Below are positions 3,614-35,619 of a stretch of DNA of 37,466 nt, piece after piece. Origin of the DNA: a virus. The notes beneath the pieces are model-generated. The model was not told where the DNA came from and did no database searches. It saw only the letters and a list, made by a program, of their open reading frames with translations. A program made the translations under genes and the position numbers. How positions within the stretch are numbered: the first letter of the stretch is position 1; each line of letters begins with the position of its first letter. Where the stretch lies: positions 1 to 37,466 of the IMG/VR virus record IMGVR_UViG_3300045996_000364, one strand, 5' to 3'.

Positions 3614-3888
3614 TCTGGATACTCAATCTTTGCGTAGTGTGTAACGATTGACTTCAAACCCCAATCGAGCTTGTCCTTGTCGTAGTTAGTCATTGAGATA
3701 CTTCTTCCCTCGACACCGGGGGTTACTGATACAACCATGTACCATCCTGTCTCAGGTGGGTTAGCCGGTACATAGGTTTTCCAGAGAATATCTTTGGGAG
3801 CTTTGGGTGGGTTAATGCCACCGTAAGGTGGGAATGCATTAGGTGGGAATACTGAGTTTGAAATTCTTCTTGTTTGAACGGGGTCCAT
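3610..3888 (-). CDS. Hypothetical protein, 92 aa, Pro-rich N-terminus
   Basis: This 92-residue protein has a proline-rich first half (FPPNAFPPYGG, INPPKAPKD) and a compact second half with GWYMVVSV and ITHYAKI-like wording (IVTHYAKIEYPE). The ending weakly recalls DUF551-type small phage proteins, which often finish with a THW/THY-x-P-like motif; I would not assign it on that alone. It starts one base inside the stop of the exonuclease gene (TAATG at 3888) and its stop overlaps the next start (ATGA), so it belongs to a coupled three-gene unit. Confidence 0.72.
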   Translation of the reverse strand: MDPVQTRRISNSVFPPNAFPPYGGINPPKAPKDILWKTYVPANPPETGWYMVVSVTPGVEGRSISMTNYDKDKLDWGLKSIVTHYAKIEYPE

Positions 3889-4622
3889 TAAACTACTTTC
3901 TCTCTTGTTCCATCAAAGTAAGAACCGCAGTCCTGACAATGAAGCTGTTGGATACGCATAGCCTTAGTGCGCCGGTACTTACTGACATGAACCTTGCTGC
4001 TACCACACGCGCCACACTCACGCTTAGGAGTGAAGCCCATATGAGGATGGTTCTTAATGTAAGGCCGTACCTTTAAGTACACACCTTCTAGGATATCAAT
4101 ATCACCAATGTTATAGGATTTCATTTTGGTTTGGGAGTCTACGCACCCTTCCATGCAACCAATCCAAAGGGGCATACCTTCATGCTCAACCTTTTTGCCG
4201 ACACCTAATGCTTGGGCTACGAAGTCGAGCTTCTTTGAAAGGAAGCCCATCTGCTTGGTAGTCTTATAAACATCAATGCTGGTAACTGGTGGTGGGGGTG
4301 GTAAGTCTAGCGTTACAAACTCCGCAGCTAGCTTAGGGATATCAAACTTGTCACCGTTATAAGTAATCACCGCATCAGCTTCGGAGATAAGCCTGTGTGC
4401 GGCCTTAACCATTTCTTCTCTTCCATGCTGCCATTCGGCATAGAAGAAGGTTTCGTTCTTACCTAACCATCTTGCGGCGAAACATAGTAAGCCGCCTGTA
4501 TCTATTACTTGCTGTAAGTTCCTGATTTCATCAAACATTCTCCAAGCGTAAGCAAGGATAGGTTTGGTTTCAATATCTAAAACAAGTATCTTGGGGGGTA
4601 ACTTTTCCTCAATAATAACCAA
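3888..4622 (-). CDS. RNase H-like (DEDD) 3'-5' exonuclease with C-terminal zinc ribbon
   Basis: This 244-residue predicted nuclease has the DnaQ/RNase H-like exonuclease layout. Exo I is LDIETK (Asp16, Glu18), Exo II is ITYNGDKFDIPKL (Asp94), and a late YNIGDIDILEGVYL segment (Asp164, Asp166) fits Exo III. The C-terminus carries a separate zinc ribbon, Cys193-x2-Cys196 and Cys219-x2-Cys222, in a basic context suited to nucleic-acid binding. The start appears to be TTG at 4622, supported by AAGG nine bases upstream; no in-frame ATG is near. It is the first gene after the lysis cassette and heads the replication block. Likely roles are processing of DNA ends or recombination intermediates. The nuclease fold call is good; the exact substrate is inferred. 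Confidence 0.82.
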   Translation of the reverse strand: MVIIEEKLPPKILVLDIETKPILAYAWRMFDEIRNLQQVIDTGGLLCFAARWLGKNETFFYAEWQHGREEMVKAAHRLISEADAVITYNGDKFDIPKLAAEFVTLDLPPPPPVTSIDVYKTTKQMGFLSKKLDFVAQALGVGKKVEHEGMPLWIGCMEGCVDSQTKMKSYNIGDIDILEGVYLKVRPYIKNHPHMGFTPKRECGACGSSKVHVSKYRRTKAMRIQQLHCQDCGSYFDGTREKVV

Positions 4623-4702: not shown

Positions 4703-5032
4703 TTACTGTTTTCTCTCTGGCCGCACAAGCCCCATGTATTGAGCTAAGCGGTCAACATTACAATCCTTATCATTGTAACAGTTCACTATGATTGCAATTT
4801 CCCTTAGTCTGGTTTTGCAATCCTTGTTAGCCCATTCTAGGTTAGCAATATAACGAGCCACTTCTGACTCCATTATAACTTCACCTTTAGGTCTTGGTCC
4901 CGCTGACTCACATTGGAGCATTTGTGGCGGGATAATAAGGGCCGGTTTAATAGGTGTTAACTTGGTAGTAGTACAACCGGTTAATAGGAACAATCCTAAT
5001 ATCACCGGGGTAAAAAGCTTCTTAAGCTCCAT
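4703..5032 (-). CDS. Outer-membrane spanin lipoprotein (Rz1-like)
   Basis: This 109-residue protein has a lipoprotein signal: basic Lys4-Lys5, hydrophobic residues 8-17 and lipobox LLTG-Cys20, so it should be lipidated and sent to the outer membrane. Pro-rich stretches follow (LTPIKPALIIPPQM), typical of o-spanins. The remainder contains four more Cys residues and is longer than classical Rz1 (about 60 residues). Its first 11 bases overlap the end of the inner-membrane spanin gene, the usual Rz/Rz1 pairing. Together they would fuse inner and outer membranes in the last step of lysis. The call rests on lipobox plus context. Confidence 0.82.
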   Translation of the reverse strand: MELKKLFTPVILGLFLLTGCTTTKLTPIKPALIIPPQMLQCESAGPRPKGEVIMESEVARYIANLEWANKDCKTRLREIAIIVNCYNDKDCNVDRLAQYMGLVRPERKQ

Positions 5033-5366
5033 TAAGAAAATCCTTTAGCAAAGGACCAACAGGGCGGTCCCATCCTTTCTTAATGTTGTCGTCAATATTT
5101 TTCAACTGACCTTCTTTAATCTTGCGGTCTTCCTCTCTCTGTGCGTTACCTAGTTCAGATATCTTCTCTAATAGAAGTATCTGTTTGTTAGTGTCCTCAA
5201 TGGTTAGAGTAAGAGCTTTATTTTGTTCTATCAGTACTAGCTTCTCTTGCTTTAGGCTTTCTACCTTGTTCTGAAGACCAGTGACATACAGATACAACCC
5301 ACCTACCAGCAGGATTACTCCTGCCGATAGGATTAGTTTTGTATAGAGTGAGCTTAGGCCGAACAT
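5022..5366 (-). CDS. Inner-membrane spanin (Rz-like)
   Basis: This 114-residue protein has one N-terminal transmembrane segment (about residues 9-28, LILSAGVILLVGGLYLYVTG), then a long heptad-rich coiled coil (about 30-80) reaching into the periplasm, the architecture of Rz-type i-spanins. It begins one base inside the endolysin stop (TAATG at 5366) and overlaps the lipoprotein start at its own end. Length and order (endolysin, i-spanin, o-spanin) fit a Gram-negative phage lysis cassette. Confidence 0.85.
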   Translation of the reverse strand: MFGLSSLYTKLILSAGVILLVGGLYLYVTGLQNKVESLKQEKLVLIEQNKALTLTIEDTNKQILLLEKISELGNAQREEDRKIKEGQLKNIDDNIKKGWDRPVGPLLKDFLNGA

Positions 5367-6154
5367 TACCGGACGCCTTCTTTGCGGTCCTTAATTCTCT
5401 TCCAGATGATGAACATAGACAGTGACACGGTTAGTGCCGCTGCAATCTCTGGACCATGAATTTGATTGAAGAATGGACCATTAGCTTCGGTCTTAATTTC
5501 AGTAACACCCTTTTTAAGTTCAGTAGCATCAGTGACCGTTAGTGAGTTAATAATCTGAAGCAGACCACCTGTACCAACAACACCACCGCCAATAATTTCT
5601 CTTGATTTAGAGAGAGGCTTAGGAGCTTCAGGAACCACACTGGCCTCAGGAACAGTGGTAGTACGAGTCGTGGAGATAACACGCTCGACCTTGTTATCCT
5701 CAGTCCCGCTAAGAAATAATGTCTTCTCTTCCGCTCTGCGCCTTACTAGGCCGGGGAGAGGAACTTTCTTACCTGTCTTAGGGTCTTTAGCTTTTACCCA
5801 AAGAGTGAATGCTTCCGCTGCCGCTGTCTTATTACCAGCCTTGAACATTCTAACAACACTTGATTTACGGAAGTTAGCTAAGCCGATGTTATAGCAGAGT
5901 GACACCATAGCATCGAACTCTGACTGATTTGCAACAGCAGGATTAATAGCAGCAAGAACACCCTGTTCAAAGTGAACTAAATGGTCTTGCAAGAAGGCTT
6001 CAGCTTCAGCCTTTGTAATTACTAGACCTTTGTACACATGAGGGCCGGTCGTACCATAACCGATAGTCCAAACACCAGCAGGACACAAGTACGCTCTGAG
6101 TCTTAAACCTTCATGCGCCTTAATAAGGTCAACACCTTTATCTGATACGCGCAT
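5366..6154 (-). CDS. GH24 endolysin (lysozyme) with C-terminal membrane extension
   Basis: The N-terminal 150 residues form a T4/P1-type lysozyme that cleaves the glycan strands of peptidoglycan. The active site reads Glu15-x8-Cys24-x5-Thr30 (HEGLRLRAYLCPAGVWTIGYG), the same spacing as the Glu-Cys-Thr triad of P1 Lyz. There is no N-terminal signal or SAR segment. Residues about 155-262 are an extra region: a Glu/Thr/Val-rich linker, a Gly-rich hydrophobic patch (GGGVVGTGGLLQII) and a clear transmembrane segment (GPEIAAALTVSLSMFIIW) followed by a basic tail. No separate holin gene is visible nearby, so this tail may anchor or help release the enzyme. A consensus promoter lies just upstream (6181-6209) and AAGGAT precedes the ATG. 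Confidence 0.9.
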   Translation of the reverse strand: MRVSDKGVDLIKAHEGLRLRAYLCPAGVWTIGYGTTGPHVYKGLVITKAEAEAFLQDHLVHFEQGVLAAINPAVANQSEFDAMVSLCYNIGLANFRKSSVVRMFKAGNKTAAAEAFTLWVKAKDPKTGKKVPLPGLVRRRAEEKTLFLSGTEDNKVERVISTTRTTTVPEASVVPEAPKPLSKSREIIGGGVVGTGGLLQIINSLTVTDATELKKGVTEIKTEANGPFFNQIHGPEIAAALTVSLSMFIIWKRIKDRKEGVR

Positions 6155-6921: not shown

Positions 6922-9900
6922 TTAACTTCCTGCCGCTTGCATTGTACCACTAACACGACTAACTGCGTCACCATCACCTGAAACATATGTGTTGCGCCAT
7001 ACAAAGCGAAACTCATAATCAACACCATTAGTGAGTCCTGTTTTTGTTTGCGATACAGATATGTTACCGTGGAACTCAGAATAACTACCGTCGCCAAGGT
7101 CGAAAGTTTTAGCATCTTGAGTGCTAGCGACTTCGGTAGCAATATCTGCAAAGCTACCGCCAACAGTTCGCCATTGCCATTTACCATAAGCACCGTTACG
7201 GCCAACTGTTCCACCGGGAGAACGCTGGAAGGTAATGGGTGCAGTACATGCTACCTGTCCATTAGGTCCAGCGCGAGCAGTAAGAGTAGCACTAACTGCA
7301 TTAGTTAGGTCGTAAGTCTGAGAGTTATTGGTAGTACCTAGCTGCGTAGTAGTAACTGTGGTAGCACCAGAACCACCGCTAGTTGTAGGCGGGTCGTCAA
7401 TACGAATCACTTTGATATCATAAGCACGTTGGATACTTTGATAGGTAGCTGTTAGACGAATAACGCTTTCTAATGCTAATGTTGAGTCATTAGGTCCAGT
7501 TAATGATAGAACTAAAGTACCAGTACCAGATGTAGTAAAAGTAACATTGCCGCTAATTAGGGTCGCGGCCCAAGTTACTCCGCTCGTTAAGTCTACCCCA
7601 TTTCGCCTAAGTATGTAACCTAGTGACTTAGGGAACTGTCCTGATTTTGGGGTACCAGTAACGCTAGCAAAGATATTAACTGGATTATCACCAACAATAT
7701 TAGCGTCAACTGTAGCATTACTTTCAGGCAAACCAGTTCCGCCTAGCGCCGCCCAATTAGTGATGGTGTAAGGTTCAAACTGGATATCACGCCAACCAGA
7801 ACCAAGCGAATGTTGAATTGTCTTGGCATAAAGAAGCTGACCTTCAGCTACTTGGTGAGTGACGACCGCATTACCATTGATACAATAGTGAATCTGTCTT
7901 CCGTCATAGAGAACAGAACAAGTGTCGGTATTGACGATGTTGCTTTGTAGTACGCCAGTGGTAGCACCTTCACGCCATGTAGCAGTCGTTCCGTTAAGCT
8001 GAATAGCGTAAGCGATACGTTCTTCATACGGGGCTGTGTCAGCATTGTTAAGGTGTGTTGCTAGTGCTAAACCAATAATCTGATTACCAGTGTTGGTAAG
8101 TGACCGGCCCTGTACAATGGCCGTACCGGGGAACGCATTACTCGGCCAAGCAAAGCTACGCCAGTTGGTAGTTAGAGCAGTAGTTACTTCGACTCTGTTA
8201 CCAATGATGGTAGTCTTAGATGCCTCTCCCCCGGCAGAAGTAAAAGCGATTAGACTTGTACCCGCACCATCAGATGGTCTACCAGTACCAGTAACATCAG
8301 GCCAGTTAGCAAGCTGTGCGTCACGCTCACTAATCAGTCTAGCTAGTGTCTCTATTTCCTTACTATAAACCTTCTGGCGACCCATAAGCATAAAGCGGCC
8401 AAGGTCATTAACATCACCACGTACAATCATTGGTGAGCGAATTTGTATTGAACCAGAAGTTGTCGAATCATATCCAGTTAGAAAGCTGCTTGCTCCGACT
8501 GCCGGGTAGACTTCCATTTGAATTGTTGTATTGTTAGCGTTAGTTGTAAAAGTACCCCAAACTAACCAATCATCACCAAGGTCCAAGATACCAAAGGCGC
8601 TAGCGTTACCATCAGCATTAATGACTTCACCAGTGCTAGTATCGAATGGTATATCAACCTGTTTTGTAGTGCCTCCAACACCAATAACACGCATCAATGG
8701 GAATCGAGTAGTTTTCGCAGTGCTATCCTTCTTGCAAACCAAACCAAAACTATACTGATTTGCTCCTGCTTGTGACTTAGCACGTGAAACAATCTGCCAG
8801 TTAGTACCTGTATCAGTTAGTTGGGTATATACACCTACCGTTGAATTAGTAGTAGTGCTAGTCCAATTGGTAGGAAAGTTTTGGTCGTCAAAGAAATGAC
8901 GGTAGATAAGGGTATCCTTATCGAAGTCATTCCACAGCACGACTTCACGAACGCTAACAAAGTCTATCTCACCAGTAAAAGCAGAGGGGACAGCAAAACG
9001 CATTGCTGTAGGAGTAGCTGGCGCTGCTAGTATCTCAGTATATACCCCTGCTGCTGAGCGAGTTGTTCCATTCGTCGTCCCGCCACCGATAAGGTCTACT
9101 CTAACTGAACCACTAGTATAACTTGTAATACTATACGTAATTTCGTAACTCTTTCCCTGAACCATTCCCGAAAAGGATTGTGTTAGGTCGCCAGTTGCAG
9201 CGGCACCAAAGGCTCTACCACTAGAGATAGACCATCCTGTACCAGTAGTCCATCCAGTAGCACTATCGAAATCAACGTTACCTAGAAGTTCAATTGTTCC
9301 TGTAACATAGCTATTAAGTAGATTTGACCAATTAGTACGAGCAGTAGTAAGAGCACTTGTGCTAAGAGCAAGGGTAGTAGCTCTTGAGAAAGCTTGAGCG
9401 TAGCGGTTTTCTAGGCTGTTATGTACTTCTTGAAGTTGTCCAAACTTCTCGCCCGCAGATAGAACATCATCATTAGAAATAACGTTTAGAATTTCAGTAT
9501 TCTGAATCGCTTCCGTGCCTACTAGCTCAGCAAGATTGTCGGGAATATTGTTGAGGTCGGTACCCCAAGTAGCACCAACAGTTGCAAAGTCGGCGGGCCT
9601 ACCGGTTCCGGTAATCTCTGCCCAAACATTAATATCTCCAACAGCCAGAGTACCAACAATATCACCAGTAAAGGCGACTTGGTTAGTAGGCCGATAGGGG
9701 TTTTCAGAAGCAAGTGAGGGCTTTATAGCAGTACTATAAAGAACACCCGTTGAAGAAAAAGAAGTGTGAACGCGCTTGAAAGCTCGAACATAAAATGTGT
9801 AGTAATCAGTAGCAGGAATTCCCTTGAAGATGATTGCTCTTTTATTCGGAGCTAAGAGTGTAACATCTTCGGCAGAGGGAGTAGTGCCAATAATATAAGC

Positions 9901-33478: not shown

Positions 33479-33991
33479 ATGGCTGGTGTTAAAGCAAGAA
33501 TTGACGTTAGCGTTTCTGCTGTTCAGAGTGGTTCTGCGGACCTAGGTACGCCCACTATGACTGCGGCGGCTGCTAAGTCACTATTAACAACCGAGGGTAC
33601 AAGTACTGTTAATGAAACAGATGTACTCTTTTCTGATGCACGTACTATCGCTGCTTCAGGCACAGACGACCTTGACCTTCGTGGCACACTTCTAGACGCA
33701 TTTGGTGCAACCATCAACTTCGCAGAAGTTATTGCAATCTACGTTGAGGCTTCTGGTACAAATACTAATAACGTTATTGTTGGTGCTGCTGCTTCCAACC
33801 AGTTCGTCGGTCCTTTTGGCGCTGCTACCCATACTGTTGCTCTTGCTCCCGGTGAGGCTTTCCTTGTCACGAACAAGAACGGTTGGGCTGTAACTGCTGG
33901 TACTGGCGACCTTCTACGTATTGCTAACTCTGGTGCTGGTACTTCAGTGAAGTACAACATCATCCTAGTTGGTCGTACTGCTGCTGCTTAA
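33479..33991 (+). CDS. Virion structural protein (head or fibre decoration type), 170 aa
   Basis: This 170-residue beta-rich protein reads TIAASGTDDLDLRGTL, then TNNVIVGAAASNQFVGPFG, and TAGTGDLLRIANSGAGTSV near its end. I recognise this pattern from a widespread phage family annotated as structural or hypothetical; its exact place in the virion is not fixed. Ala/Gly/Thr content and lack of Cys fit a capsid or fibre component. It has its own upstream signals, GGAG at good spacing, and a terminator behind it, so it is made as a single-gene unit, probably in quantity. Confidence 0.78.
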   Translation: MAGVKARIDVSVSAVQSGSADLGTPTMTAAAAKSLLTTEGTSTVNETDVLFSDARTIAASGTDDLDLRGTLLDAFGATINFAEVIAIYVEASGTNTNNVIVGAAASNQFVGPFGAATHTVALAPGEAFLVTNKNGWAVTAGTGDLLRIANSGAGTSVKYNIILVGRTAAA

Positions 33992-34016: not shown

Positions 34017-34048
34017 AGAGCGCTGCCTTTTGGTGGCGCTCTTTTTTT
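34017..34048 (+). terminator. Rho-independent terminator
   Basis: Stem AGAGCGC (34017-34023) with GCGCTCT (34036-34042), a small internal mismatch and inner CC/GG pairs, then TTTTTTT to 34048. It closes the unit of the 170-residue structural protein. Confidence 0.88.
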
Positions 34049-34075: not shown

Positions 34076-34099
34076 ACAATTCTTGGTTTGGAGAATTGT
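34076..34099. promoter_or_regulatory. Inverted repeat over -10-like box and RBS of the protease gene
   Basis: Perfect eight-base arms ACAATTCT (34076-34083) and AGAATTGT (34092-34099) flank TGGTTTGG. The left arm overlaps a -10-like TACAAT (34075-34080); the loop end and right arm contain the ribosome binding site GGAG (34090-34093). It could block transcription when bound or translation when folded. The -35 is weak. Confidence 0.5.
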
Positions 34100-34102
34100 T
34101 CT

Positions 34103-34762
34103 ATGTTCAAGAAATTGCTAGCGGCACTGGTTGCATTAGCCGCATTGGGGTCTACTCCCGCTTTAGCGGCCTCTACCCCTATTAATCCCGAATTATCTGC
34201 TGAACTTCCGCCTTTTCTAAAATCTCCACCTAAGGCTAATATCAACATCTTTGCAGTTCGTTTAATCCGTTGTGGTAATTCCTCTGGCACTGCTTTCTAT
34301 ATCGACTCTAAAGGTATCTTCGTGACTGCTTACCATGTTTCCGAAGAAGAAAGATGTTTTGATATAGCAACTGGCGATGAACTTAAAGCTTACCATAGCG
34401 ATAAGAAAAACGATTTTGCTCTACTAACTCTTGATAGTAAAGGTGACGGTCGTACCTTAGATATTAGCTGTGCGGGTTTCAAAACTGGTAAGAAGTATTA
34501 CACTCTTGGTTGGGCTAATGGTTACAACTTAGTCCTATATGAGCTTACTGCTACTGGTAAGTATACTGGTTCAAATTTCACCCTAAGTGGGACTCCCGCC
34601 CCCGGCTTGAGGGAACTTAAAGGTGTTCTGATTCCCGGTATGTCAGGTGGGCCTATTATAGACCCTGATACTTGGCGTGTGGTTGGTATCAATAATGGAA
34701 CTAAGGCTTGGCACACTGCTTGGTCTAGAGAACTTAAAGACACTACCCTCTGCCGTAAATAG
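34103..34762 (+). CDS. Secreted trypsin-like serine protease, 219 aa
   Basis: The protein starts with a Sec signal peptide (FKK, hydrophobic LLAALVALAALG, cut after ALA at residue 22), then a chymotrypsin/HtrA-like fold. The catalytic triad is His78 (FVTAYHVS), Asp104 (KKNDFALLTL) and Ser171 (PGMSGGPIID), with oxyanion Gly169-Met170. Four cysteines (57, 85, 123, 217) could form disulfides, fitting an exported enzyme. ATG 34103 is preferred over TTG 34088 because GGAG lies ten bases before it. There is no PDZ domain. It lies among virion genes but has its own terminator upstream and promoter-like element, as cargo genes do. It could act in the periplasm on host or phage proteins. Fold and triad are clear; the target is unknown. 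Confidence 0.85.
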   Translation: MFKKLLAALVALAALGSTPALAASTPINPELSAELPPFLKSPPKANINIFAVRLIRCGNSSGTAFYIDSKGIFVTAYHVSEEERCFDIATGDELKAYHSDKKNDFALLTLDSKGDGRTLDISCAGFKTGKKYYTLGWANGYNLVLYELTATGKYTGSNFTLSGTPAPGLRELKGVLIPGMSGGPIIDPDTWRVVGINNGTKAWHTAWSRELKDTTLCRK

Positions 34763-34792: not shown

Positions 34793-34810
34793 CATAGTAT
34801 GAGCTATAAC
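34778..34810. promoter_or_regulatory. 33-nt palindrome covering -10, start site and start codon
   Basis: Fifteen-base arms GTTATAGCTTATACT (34778-34792) and AGTATGAGCTATAAC (34796-34810) pair along their whole length with one G-T wobble around a CAT centre. It is the longest inverted repeat I found here. As DNA it would be a strong dimer operator; as RNA only the right half would be transcribed from the predicted start. Confidence 0.75.
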
Positions 34811-35149
34811 CTTAAAATCACCGTACACAATAACCGTGACTATGAGCAGCCCTTCATTCTTAAGGATGATGCTGGCGTTGTTATCGACCTTACTGGTTGT
34901 AAGCTGTCATTTGGTTATGGAACTACAACCAAAGTTCTTGGAACTCATATCACTAGTGGGGGTGCTGCTAATCTGTGCATCTTTATCACTAACGCAGTAG
35001 CGGGTGAATTCAAGCTAGTGCTCCCCCATGCAGTTCTCAAGACACTCTCCCCCGGCATTTATGAACATGACCTAGTACTTATCGGTACTGACAACAAGAG
35101 AACCGGCATTTGGGCTGGTCAGATGGTTGTCAAGAAAGGTCTTGCATAA
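34799..35149 (+). CDS. BppU-N-like fibre/baseplate accessory protein, 117 aa
   Basis: This 117-residue beta-sandwich-like protein follows the pattern of BppU N-terminal / phage fibre-associated domains: F-x-L-K-D-D-x-G-x-x-x-D-L-T-G near residues 20-34 and PGIYEHDLVLIGTDN near the end (family G-x-Y-x-x-D-L). ATG at 34799 is chosen over an upstream TTG at 34769, which lies in the promoter. The stop overlaps the next start (TAATG at 35149), so the two genes form a unit. Probably part of a fibre or its attachment. Confidence 0.72.
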   Translation: MSYNLKITVHNNRDYEQPFILKDDAGVVIDLTGCKLSFGYGTTTKVLGTHITSGGAANLCIFITNAVAGEFKLVLPHAVLKTLSPGIYEHDLVLIGTDNKRTGIWAGQMVVKKGLA

Positions 35150-35619
35150 TGCCTATTGAACCTATGACTCTCAACATCAGGCTCGACCCTGAAACGCCAT
35201 TCGTTCTTTCTGGTGGCAACCTTACCAACGTCAACCTTCAGCTTAATCCTTCGATTAGCGGAGCCGTAGCTTTGACAGGCCCCAAAGGCGACCCTTCTTT
35301 CAAGGGTATTGGTGGATTCGTAGGTGGTATCCCACTTGCTGACGAACCAGTTGTTGTAGGTATTGCACCTTACGACCTAACTTTTACTCTATCCGAATGT
35401 AAGTCAGAAGCTTTAGTAGCTGCTACTGCCATTACGGTGTTCAAGATTAAGTGTGAAGGTATTGAAATTGGTACCATTACTTATGGTGCTGGTGCGACCG
35501 TAGGAACTGTTGCTTTTACTGACAGTACGGTGGCTAAAGGTGAGCTTGTTACCATCGTTGCTCCCACAACTCCTGATGCTACATTAGCTAACATCACTTT
35601 CTTGCTAGCTTCTGCCTAA
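35149..35619 (+). CDS. Phage fibre-like protein with GPKGDP motif, 156 aa
   Basis: This 156-residue protein starts MPIEPMTLNIRLDPETPFV at the TAATG junction; an upstream start at 35110 is out of keeping with that coupling. It has a short collagen-like GPKGDP near residue 45, then a beta domain with TFTLSECKSEALVAATAITV, IGTITYGAGATVGTVAF and VTIVAPTTPDATLANITF. I have seen the last pattern in many phage fibre-associated proteins (IGTITFAAGAT / PDATLADI). A virion or fibre role is likely. Confidence 0.7.
   Translation: MPIEPMTLNIRLDPETPFVLSGGNLTNVNLQLNPSISGAVALTGPKGDPSFKGIGGFVGGIPLADEPVVVGIAPYDLTFTLSECKSEALVAATAITVFKIKCEGIEIGTITYGAGATVGTVAFTDSTVAKGELVTIVAPTTPDATLANITFLLASA

Follow-up and report, generated by a model that had tools for sequence, protein, structure and literature searches.

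What could a phage gain from an exported, trypsin-like serine protease that it encodes at the head of a cluster of fibre genes? The gene in question lies at positions 34103-34762 on the plus strand of the IMG/VR virus record IMGVR_UViG_3300045996_000364, a linear record of 37,466 bp with a G+C content of 0.45 that was analysed at its full length and is referred to here as the window. The window is probably a fragment, since its terminase is approximately 50% identical to the terminases of phages of at least 100 kb, such as Rhizobium phage B1VFA and Salmonella phage SSU5. The original prediction, made from the sequence alone, offered three roles for the protease: weakening of the envelope before lysis, a block to superinfection, or processing of a fibre protein. 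Comparison with relatives favors the first of these, makes the second a possibility, and gives the least support to the third. We propose that the gene encodes a late, periplasmic accessory lysis protease of the phage, a reading to which we assign about an even chance of being correct.

The open reading frame is intact, running from an ATG at 34103 to a stop at 34762, and encodes a protein of 219 amino acids. A likely Shine-Dalgarno sequence, GGAG (34090-34093), lies 9 nt before the ATG, and an in-frame TTG is also present upstream at 34088. The protein scores 46.3 bits against Pfam Trypsin_2 (PF13365), for which the curated cutoff is 27.6, and matches PHROG 9683, annotated as protease, with an E-value of 6.7e-12. 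Its score and the presence of the catalytic His, Asp, and Ser in the expected order place it in Trypsin_2. The triad consists of His78 (in TAYHV; codon at 34334-34336; invariant in alignments A1, A3, A4, and A5), Asp104 (in KNDFALL; 34412-34414; invariant in A1 and A4 and conserved in at least 90% of A5), and Ser181 (in PGMSGGP; codon TCA at 34643-34645; invariant). The original prediction had named the same His and Asp; its Ser171 is a miscount of Ser181. The four cysteines on which it also relied, Cys57 (34271-34273), Cys85 (34355-34357), Cys123 (34469-34471), and Cys217 (in TTLC; 34751-34753), are invariant in a 14-member group of four-cysteine homologues.

The N-terminus carries a predicted Sec signal peptide (residues 1-22; 34103-34168) with the sequence MFKKLLAALVALAALGSTPALA, in which a KK pair precedes a hydrophobic core and cleavage is expected between ALA and a following A. 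When the protein was shuffled 2000 times, this hydrophobic core was equalled in only 15 cases, which bears out the predicted export signal. An AlphaFold2 model built from 22 aligned relatives has a mean pLDDT of 86.6; most of the catalytic domain exceeds 90, whereas confidence is low at residues 21-28. The best solved-structure matches of the model in Foldseek are MarP (Rv3671c), Deg1, and DegS, each of them an extracytoplasmic or organelle-lumen protease. The confident HtrA/MarP-like fold and the Trypsin_2 score thus agree with the chymotrypsin fold that had been predicted. Taken together, the sequence and the model support well the view that the window protein is an exported chymotrypsin-fold protease; that it is proteolytically active is what we infer from its conserved triad.

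A strong intrinsic terminator (34017-34042, plus strand; an 11-bp stem with 7 GC pairs and a T6 tail) separates the protease from the gene upstream of it. The gene had been described as insulated by this terminator and by a promoter after it, and only the upstream half of that description stands. The promoter-like sequence TTTACT-17-TATACT at 34764-34792 matches the consensus at 9 of 12 positions, and such sites are not more frequent than expected by chance (9 in the region versus 6.9 ± 2.5 in shuffles). No terminator was found from the protease to the next gene; therefore, the gene is not insulated on its downstream side. The upstream neighbor (33479-33991; phrog_22694) has a homologue among the head genes of a Bradyrhizobium phage. 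Fibre-type genes begin approximately 37 bp past the protease and, like the upstream neighbor, lie on the plus strand: a gene related to phrog_1084 and L-shaped tail fibre assembly proteins (34799-35149, with its ATG at 34799), a tail-fibre-like gene (phrog_7049; 35149-35619), and a gene of the Gp80 fibre I family (PF23140; 35672-36052). The scaffold and capsid genes are encoded on the minus strand at a distance of approximately 10 kb, as originally reported.

The window possesses a lysis cassette of its own on the minus strand (6154-4703), consisting of a GH24-type lysozyme (phrog_7; 5366-6154), an Rz-like inner-membrane spanin (phrog_739; 5022-5366), and an Rz-like outer-membrane spanin with the lipobox LTGC (phrog_456; 4703-5032). 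This cassette contains no protease, and the protease gene lies approximately 28 kb from it. Two features of the window therefore count against a lysis role: the gene is away from the cassette, on the other strand and beside fibre genes, and the window already has a full endolysin and spanin pair. The C-terminal extension of the window's lysozyme ends in a hydrophobic segment (AALTVSLSMFIIWKRIKDRK), so this endolysin is perhaps membrane-anchored; the GH108 endolysin of locus L033 likewise has a late hydrophobic segment. We also observed that a 3'-5' exonuclease-like gene (ILVLDIETK-type motif; 3888-4622) adjoins the window's lysis cassette and that a gene of this kind repeatedly adjoins the lysis cassette in protease-bearing phages (L009, L015, L018, L023, L029, and L031).

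Among annotated phages, tblastn found the protein only in phages of Rhizobium and Brevundimonas (18 records), where its gene stands by itself in the vicinity of head or portal genes. A single-sequence search of IMG/VR returned no close relatives of the protease, and profile searches of IMG/VR returned 28 loci. A search of plasmids gave only one generic Deinococcus match; one scan of genome contigs with a narrow motif gave nothing, and a second gave one phage contig in addition to generic cyanobacterial and Saprospiraceae matches. One protease-bearing phage contig, of 47 kb, belongs to Sphingomonas segetis YJ09 (L039; NZ_WJSQ01000003), and this is the only strong match among 401 Sphingomonadaceae genomes, so the gene appears to belong to phages that seldom lysogenize there. 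Close relatives of the window phage itself were sought through its helicase, which gave none, and through the gene upstream of the protease, which gave two 59-kb contigs, neither of which matched the protease in the flanks examined.

The homologues retain both the triad and an N-terminal export segment, the loss of which would have spoken against the original prediction. Each of the 36 homologues compared has a hydrophobic export or anchor segment, but in an individual sequence this segment is often not distinct from shuffles. In the four-cysteine group (n = 14, alignment A4), the cysteines and the triad are invariant at a mean column identity of 41%, and the window protease has this same combination, which is one of the features that define the lysis-cassette protease group. 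Values of dN/dS in close homologue pairs are between 0.09 and 0.25, indicating purifying selection. The tree joins the window protein to L009, which is itself found in a lysis cassette, at 90/90 and places the two near L020 and a 13-row clade of cassette members, with support of 84/91 for the wider fork. At that level of support for the wider fork, displacement of the window gene out of a lysis cassette is no more than plausible. Two other four-cysteine loci are of note in their own right. L026 carries two tandem, diverged copies of the protease (7800-8543 and 8573-9184), the first of which is a predicted lipoprotein (LGAC), and L013, from an IMG/VR contig of jumbo-phage size (499,572 bp), encodes a four-cysteine protease with a score close to that of the window protease; no lysis genes are recognised around it.

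The position of the protease gene beside fibre genes is not shared consistently by its homologues: the closest group is found in lysis cassettes, and others are near portal or head genes or alone. In approximately 14 distinct four-cysteine IMG/VR phages, the gene lies within the lysis cassette, usually in the order endolysin, optional holin, protease, Rz, Rz1 (L009, L014/17/18/19, L015, L016, L020, L021/22, L023, L024, L025, L028, L029, L030, L031, and L032). At these loci, the protease gene immediately follows a peptidoglycan hydrolase gene, immediately precedes an Rz-like gene, or does both; L009 has the arrangement coil-TM protein, protease, holin, SLT hydrolase. The gap from hydrolase to protease, on the same strand, is 16-1067 bp (median, 230 bp), the records being 13-47 kb long, and each of the six GH24-matching records holds a single such hydrolase. 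The neighboring hydrolase may be of GH24 (phrog_7), GH19 (phrog_181), GH108, Amidase_2, or SLT type, and this variation between loci indicates that the protease stayed while the hydrolase was exchanged. Start and stop codons overlap with an upstream membrane protein gene in L009, L030, and L031 and with the downstream Rz-like gene in L020, L022, L023, and L032; the overlaps that couple the protease to its neighbors include ATGA in L009 and L022 and GTGA in L031.

These cassette loci are related rather than 14 independent events, and the tree suggests approximately three lineages (the 13-row clade, L020, and L009). Several of the Rz-like neighbors are missed or weakly scored by PHROG models and were therefore called by topology (an N-terminal TM followed by a charged stretch, with a lipobox in the case of Rz1), so these calls are weaker than the endolysin calls; several of the small membrane proteins encoded upstream match no PHROG and are holin-like only. 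The small one-TM, charged-coil proteins near the protease or lysis genes at L009:3426-3623, which has no family match, L036:5478-5711, and L032:5672-5863 have a layout that resembles holin/releasin-type proteins. The Brevundimonas jumbo phages, the rhizobial members, and the four-cysteine loci L013 and L026 are not in recognised lysis cassettes, which also counts against a lysis role.

Because the genes of its relatives sit inside a lysis gene cluster, a role in breaking the envelope is probable for the protease, and the gene order and coupling lead us to infer that it acts at lysis. Under the proposed mechanism, the protein would be transcribed late and, almost certainly, exported through Sec. 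Once its signal peptide is removed, the chymotrypsin-type domain would very likely fold, and predicted disulfides among the four conserved cysteines would probably stabilize it. Envelope proteins would then be cut at about the time when the endolysin and spanins act, a step that the gene order in relatives makes roughly an even proposition. The window gene, being outside the lysis cassette, would act in trans. The best substrates might be proteins that tie the outer membrane to peptidoglycan, although this is a guess of low probability. In Agrobacterium and related alphaproteobacteria, which have no Braun's lipoprotein (Lpp), beta-barrel proteins linked to peptidoglycan take its place (PMC11527210), and such tethers would therefore be reasonable targets and the most useful ones.

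A possible parallel comes from Agrobacterium phage Atu_ph07 (NC_042013), the baseplate hub of which (L094:1916-4513) has a related Trypsin_2 domain at its end (63 bits; residues 700-849), in which H (HV), D (KD), and PGMSGGP motifs are present. The hub is recorded as a tail lysozyme, and Pfam found no lysozyme domain in it. Unlike the window protease, this domain is fused to a gp5-like OB-fold virion hub without a signal peptide, and any action it has would come at entry. Delivery of a protease by the tip of the tail nonetheless fits the idea that proteolysis helps phages to cross these envelopes, and we count this one case, as an independent parallel to the exported protease, in favor of the lysis role.

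The same observations bear on other readings. Superinfection exclusion or receptor destruction, in which the protease would degrade a surface or periplasmic protein used for adsorption or DNA entry or would stop virions from sticking to debris, would account for an exported protease that adjoins fibre genes. It would also suit the several relatives that are solitary genes and the relative in the temperate Rhizobium phage 16-3 (p036; L092:3809-4708), which is separated from the immX immunity genes upstream of it by approximately 3 kb. We consider it unlikely, however, because it leaves unexplained the repeated place between endolysin or holin and spanin genes with overlapping codons, and because the rarity of the gene in host genomes indicates that it is not mainly a prophage trait. 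A regulator of lysis, which would cut lysis proteins of the phage itself or an inhibitor made by the host rather than tethers, for example by freeing an anchored endolysin or destroying a lysozyme inhibitor, is possible because MarP, the best structural match, cleaves and thereby activates the peptidoglycan hydrolase RipA (PMC6628586) and because a protease model of endolysin release, the releasin protease hypothesis, has been proposed for Mu gp25 (PMC9239132). The gene is co-operonic with endolysins, some of which have an N-terminal membrane segment (L018, L020, and L022). However, the protease of the Mu model is cytoplasmic and the authors of that model doubt it (PMC9239132), and the adjoining hydrolases are unrelated and in many cases without a membrane anchor, so that no common phage substrate is evident; we regard such a regulator as improbable.

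The fibre genes beside the protease and the related domain in the Atu_ph07 hub might instead suggest a virion enzyme or a fibre-processing protease. This is quite improbable, given that a cleavable Sec signal would take the protease out of the cytoplasm, where virions are assembled, and that homologues show no consistent proximity to fibre genes. A gene may also occupy a late cassette as cargo, and phages often carry extra genes near their lysis genes. The scattered distribution of the gene would agree with such cargo, which might remove periplasmic toxins or competitors without a role in lysis, but its translational coupling, its retention through endolysin exchange, and its scarcity in lysogens make this a very improbable explanation.

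Lysis by phages of Gram-negative bacteria has been described mainly in enterobacteria, in which Braun's lipoprotein holds the outer membrane in place. Phages of hosts that lack this lipoprotein may need another tool for lysis. If the accessory lysis role is correct, a protease that is kept while the endolysin changes is a further component of lysis and offers a way to study how the envelopes of alphaproteobacteria are opened by phages. A broader claim, that in addition to holin, endolysin, and spanins a further lysis class, a Sec-secreted, four-cysteine, trypsin-like, tether-cutting protease, exists in many phages, among them one of Sphingomonas and probably others that infect alphaproteobacteria, and that the window copy is a displaced example of it, is tentative and unlikely. 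This kind of protein is already known, such proteases being annotated in phages. In the literature searched, an incomplete set outside the subscription journals, we found no description of a trypsin-like protease as a lysis-cassette component, of its conserved lysis-cassette place, or of the four-cysteine group.

Among known proteins, the PHROG 9683/Trypsin_2 proteases of Rhizobium (Pootjesviridae) and Brevundimonas (Dolichocephalovirinae) phages share the domain, size, triad, and N-terminal export segment of the window protease, and the Brevundimonas copies share all four cysteines. They are 27-33% identical to it, lie beside head or portal rather than fibre genes, and are annotated as proteases with no function assigned. 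The periplasmic HtrA/Deg proteases (DegS, DegQ, and Deg1) have the chymotrypsin fold in common with the window protein, which is not a member of that family: it has no PDZ domain according to Pfam, its protease domain reaches the C-terminus of the 219 residues, and it scores 19 bits against a TIGR02037 cutoff of 416. MarP, a periplasmic protease of Mycobacterium tuberculosis, is the best fold match in the PDB (E = 1.7e-11, TM = 0.65) and has an exported catalytic domain that cleaves a peptidoglycan hydrolase. Its identity to the window protease is 22%, and membership of its family is rejected by a score of 19.2 of 250 bits and by a single N-terminal segment in place of a four-helix membrane domain. 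A prohead or capsid maturation protease, which the original prediction had rightly set aside, is rejected by the lack of any such Pfam or PHROG match, the signal peptide, and the 10-kb distance from the head genes. The PADLOC matches to anti-phage defence proteins reflect the shared protease fold only; the match to RT-Protease (PDLC02960; 40 bits, profile positions 333-484) covers the protease part, with no RT domain. Unlike the lysis-cassette protease group, the window gene does not lie between endolysin or holin and spanin genes. LysB of the mycobacteriophages is an esterase with no sequence relation to the window protease, and its function is demonstrated whereas that of the window protease is predicted. 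Encoded in the lysis cassette, targeted to the envelope, and adapted to a special host envelope, LysB of phage Ms6 nevertheless provides a precedent for an extra envelope enzyme among the lysis genes (PMC5707550).
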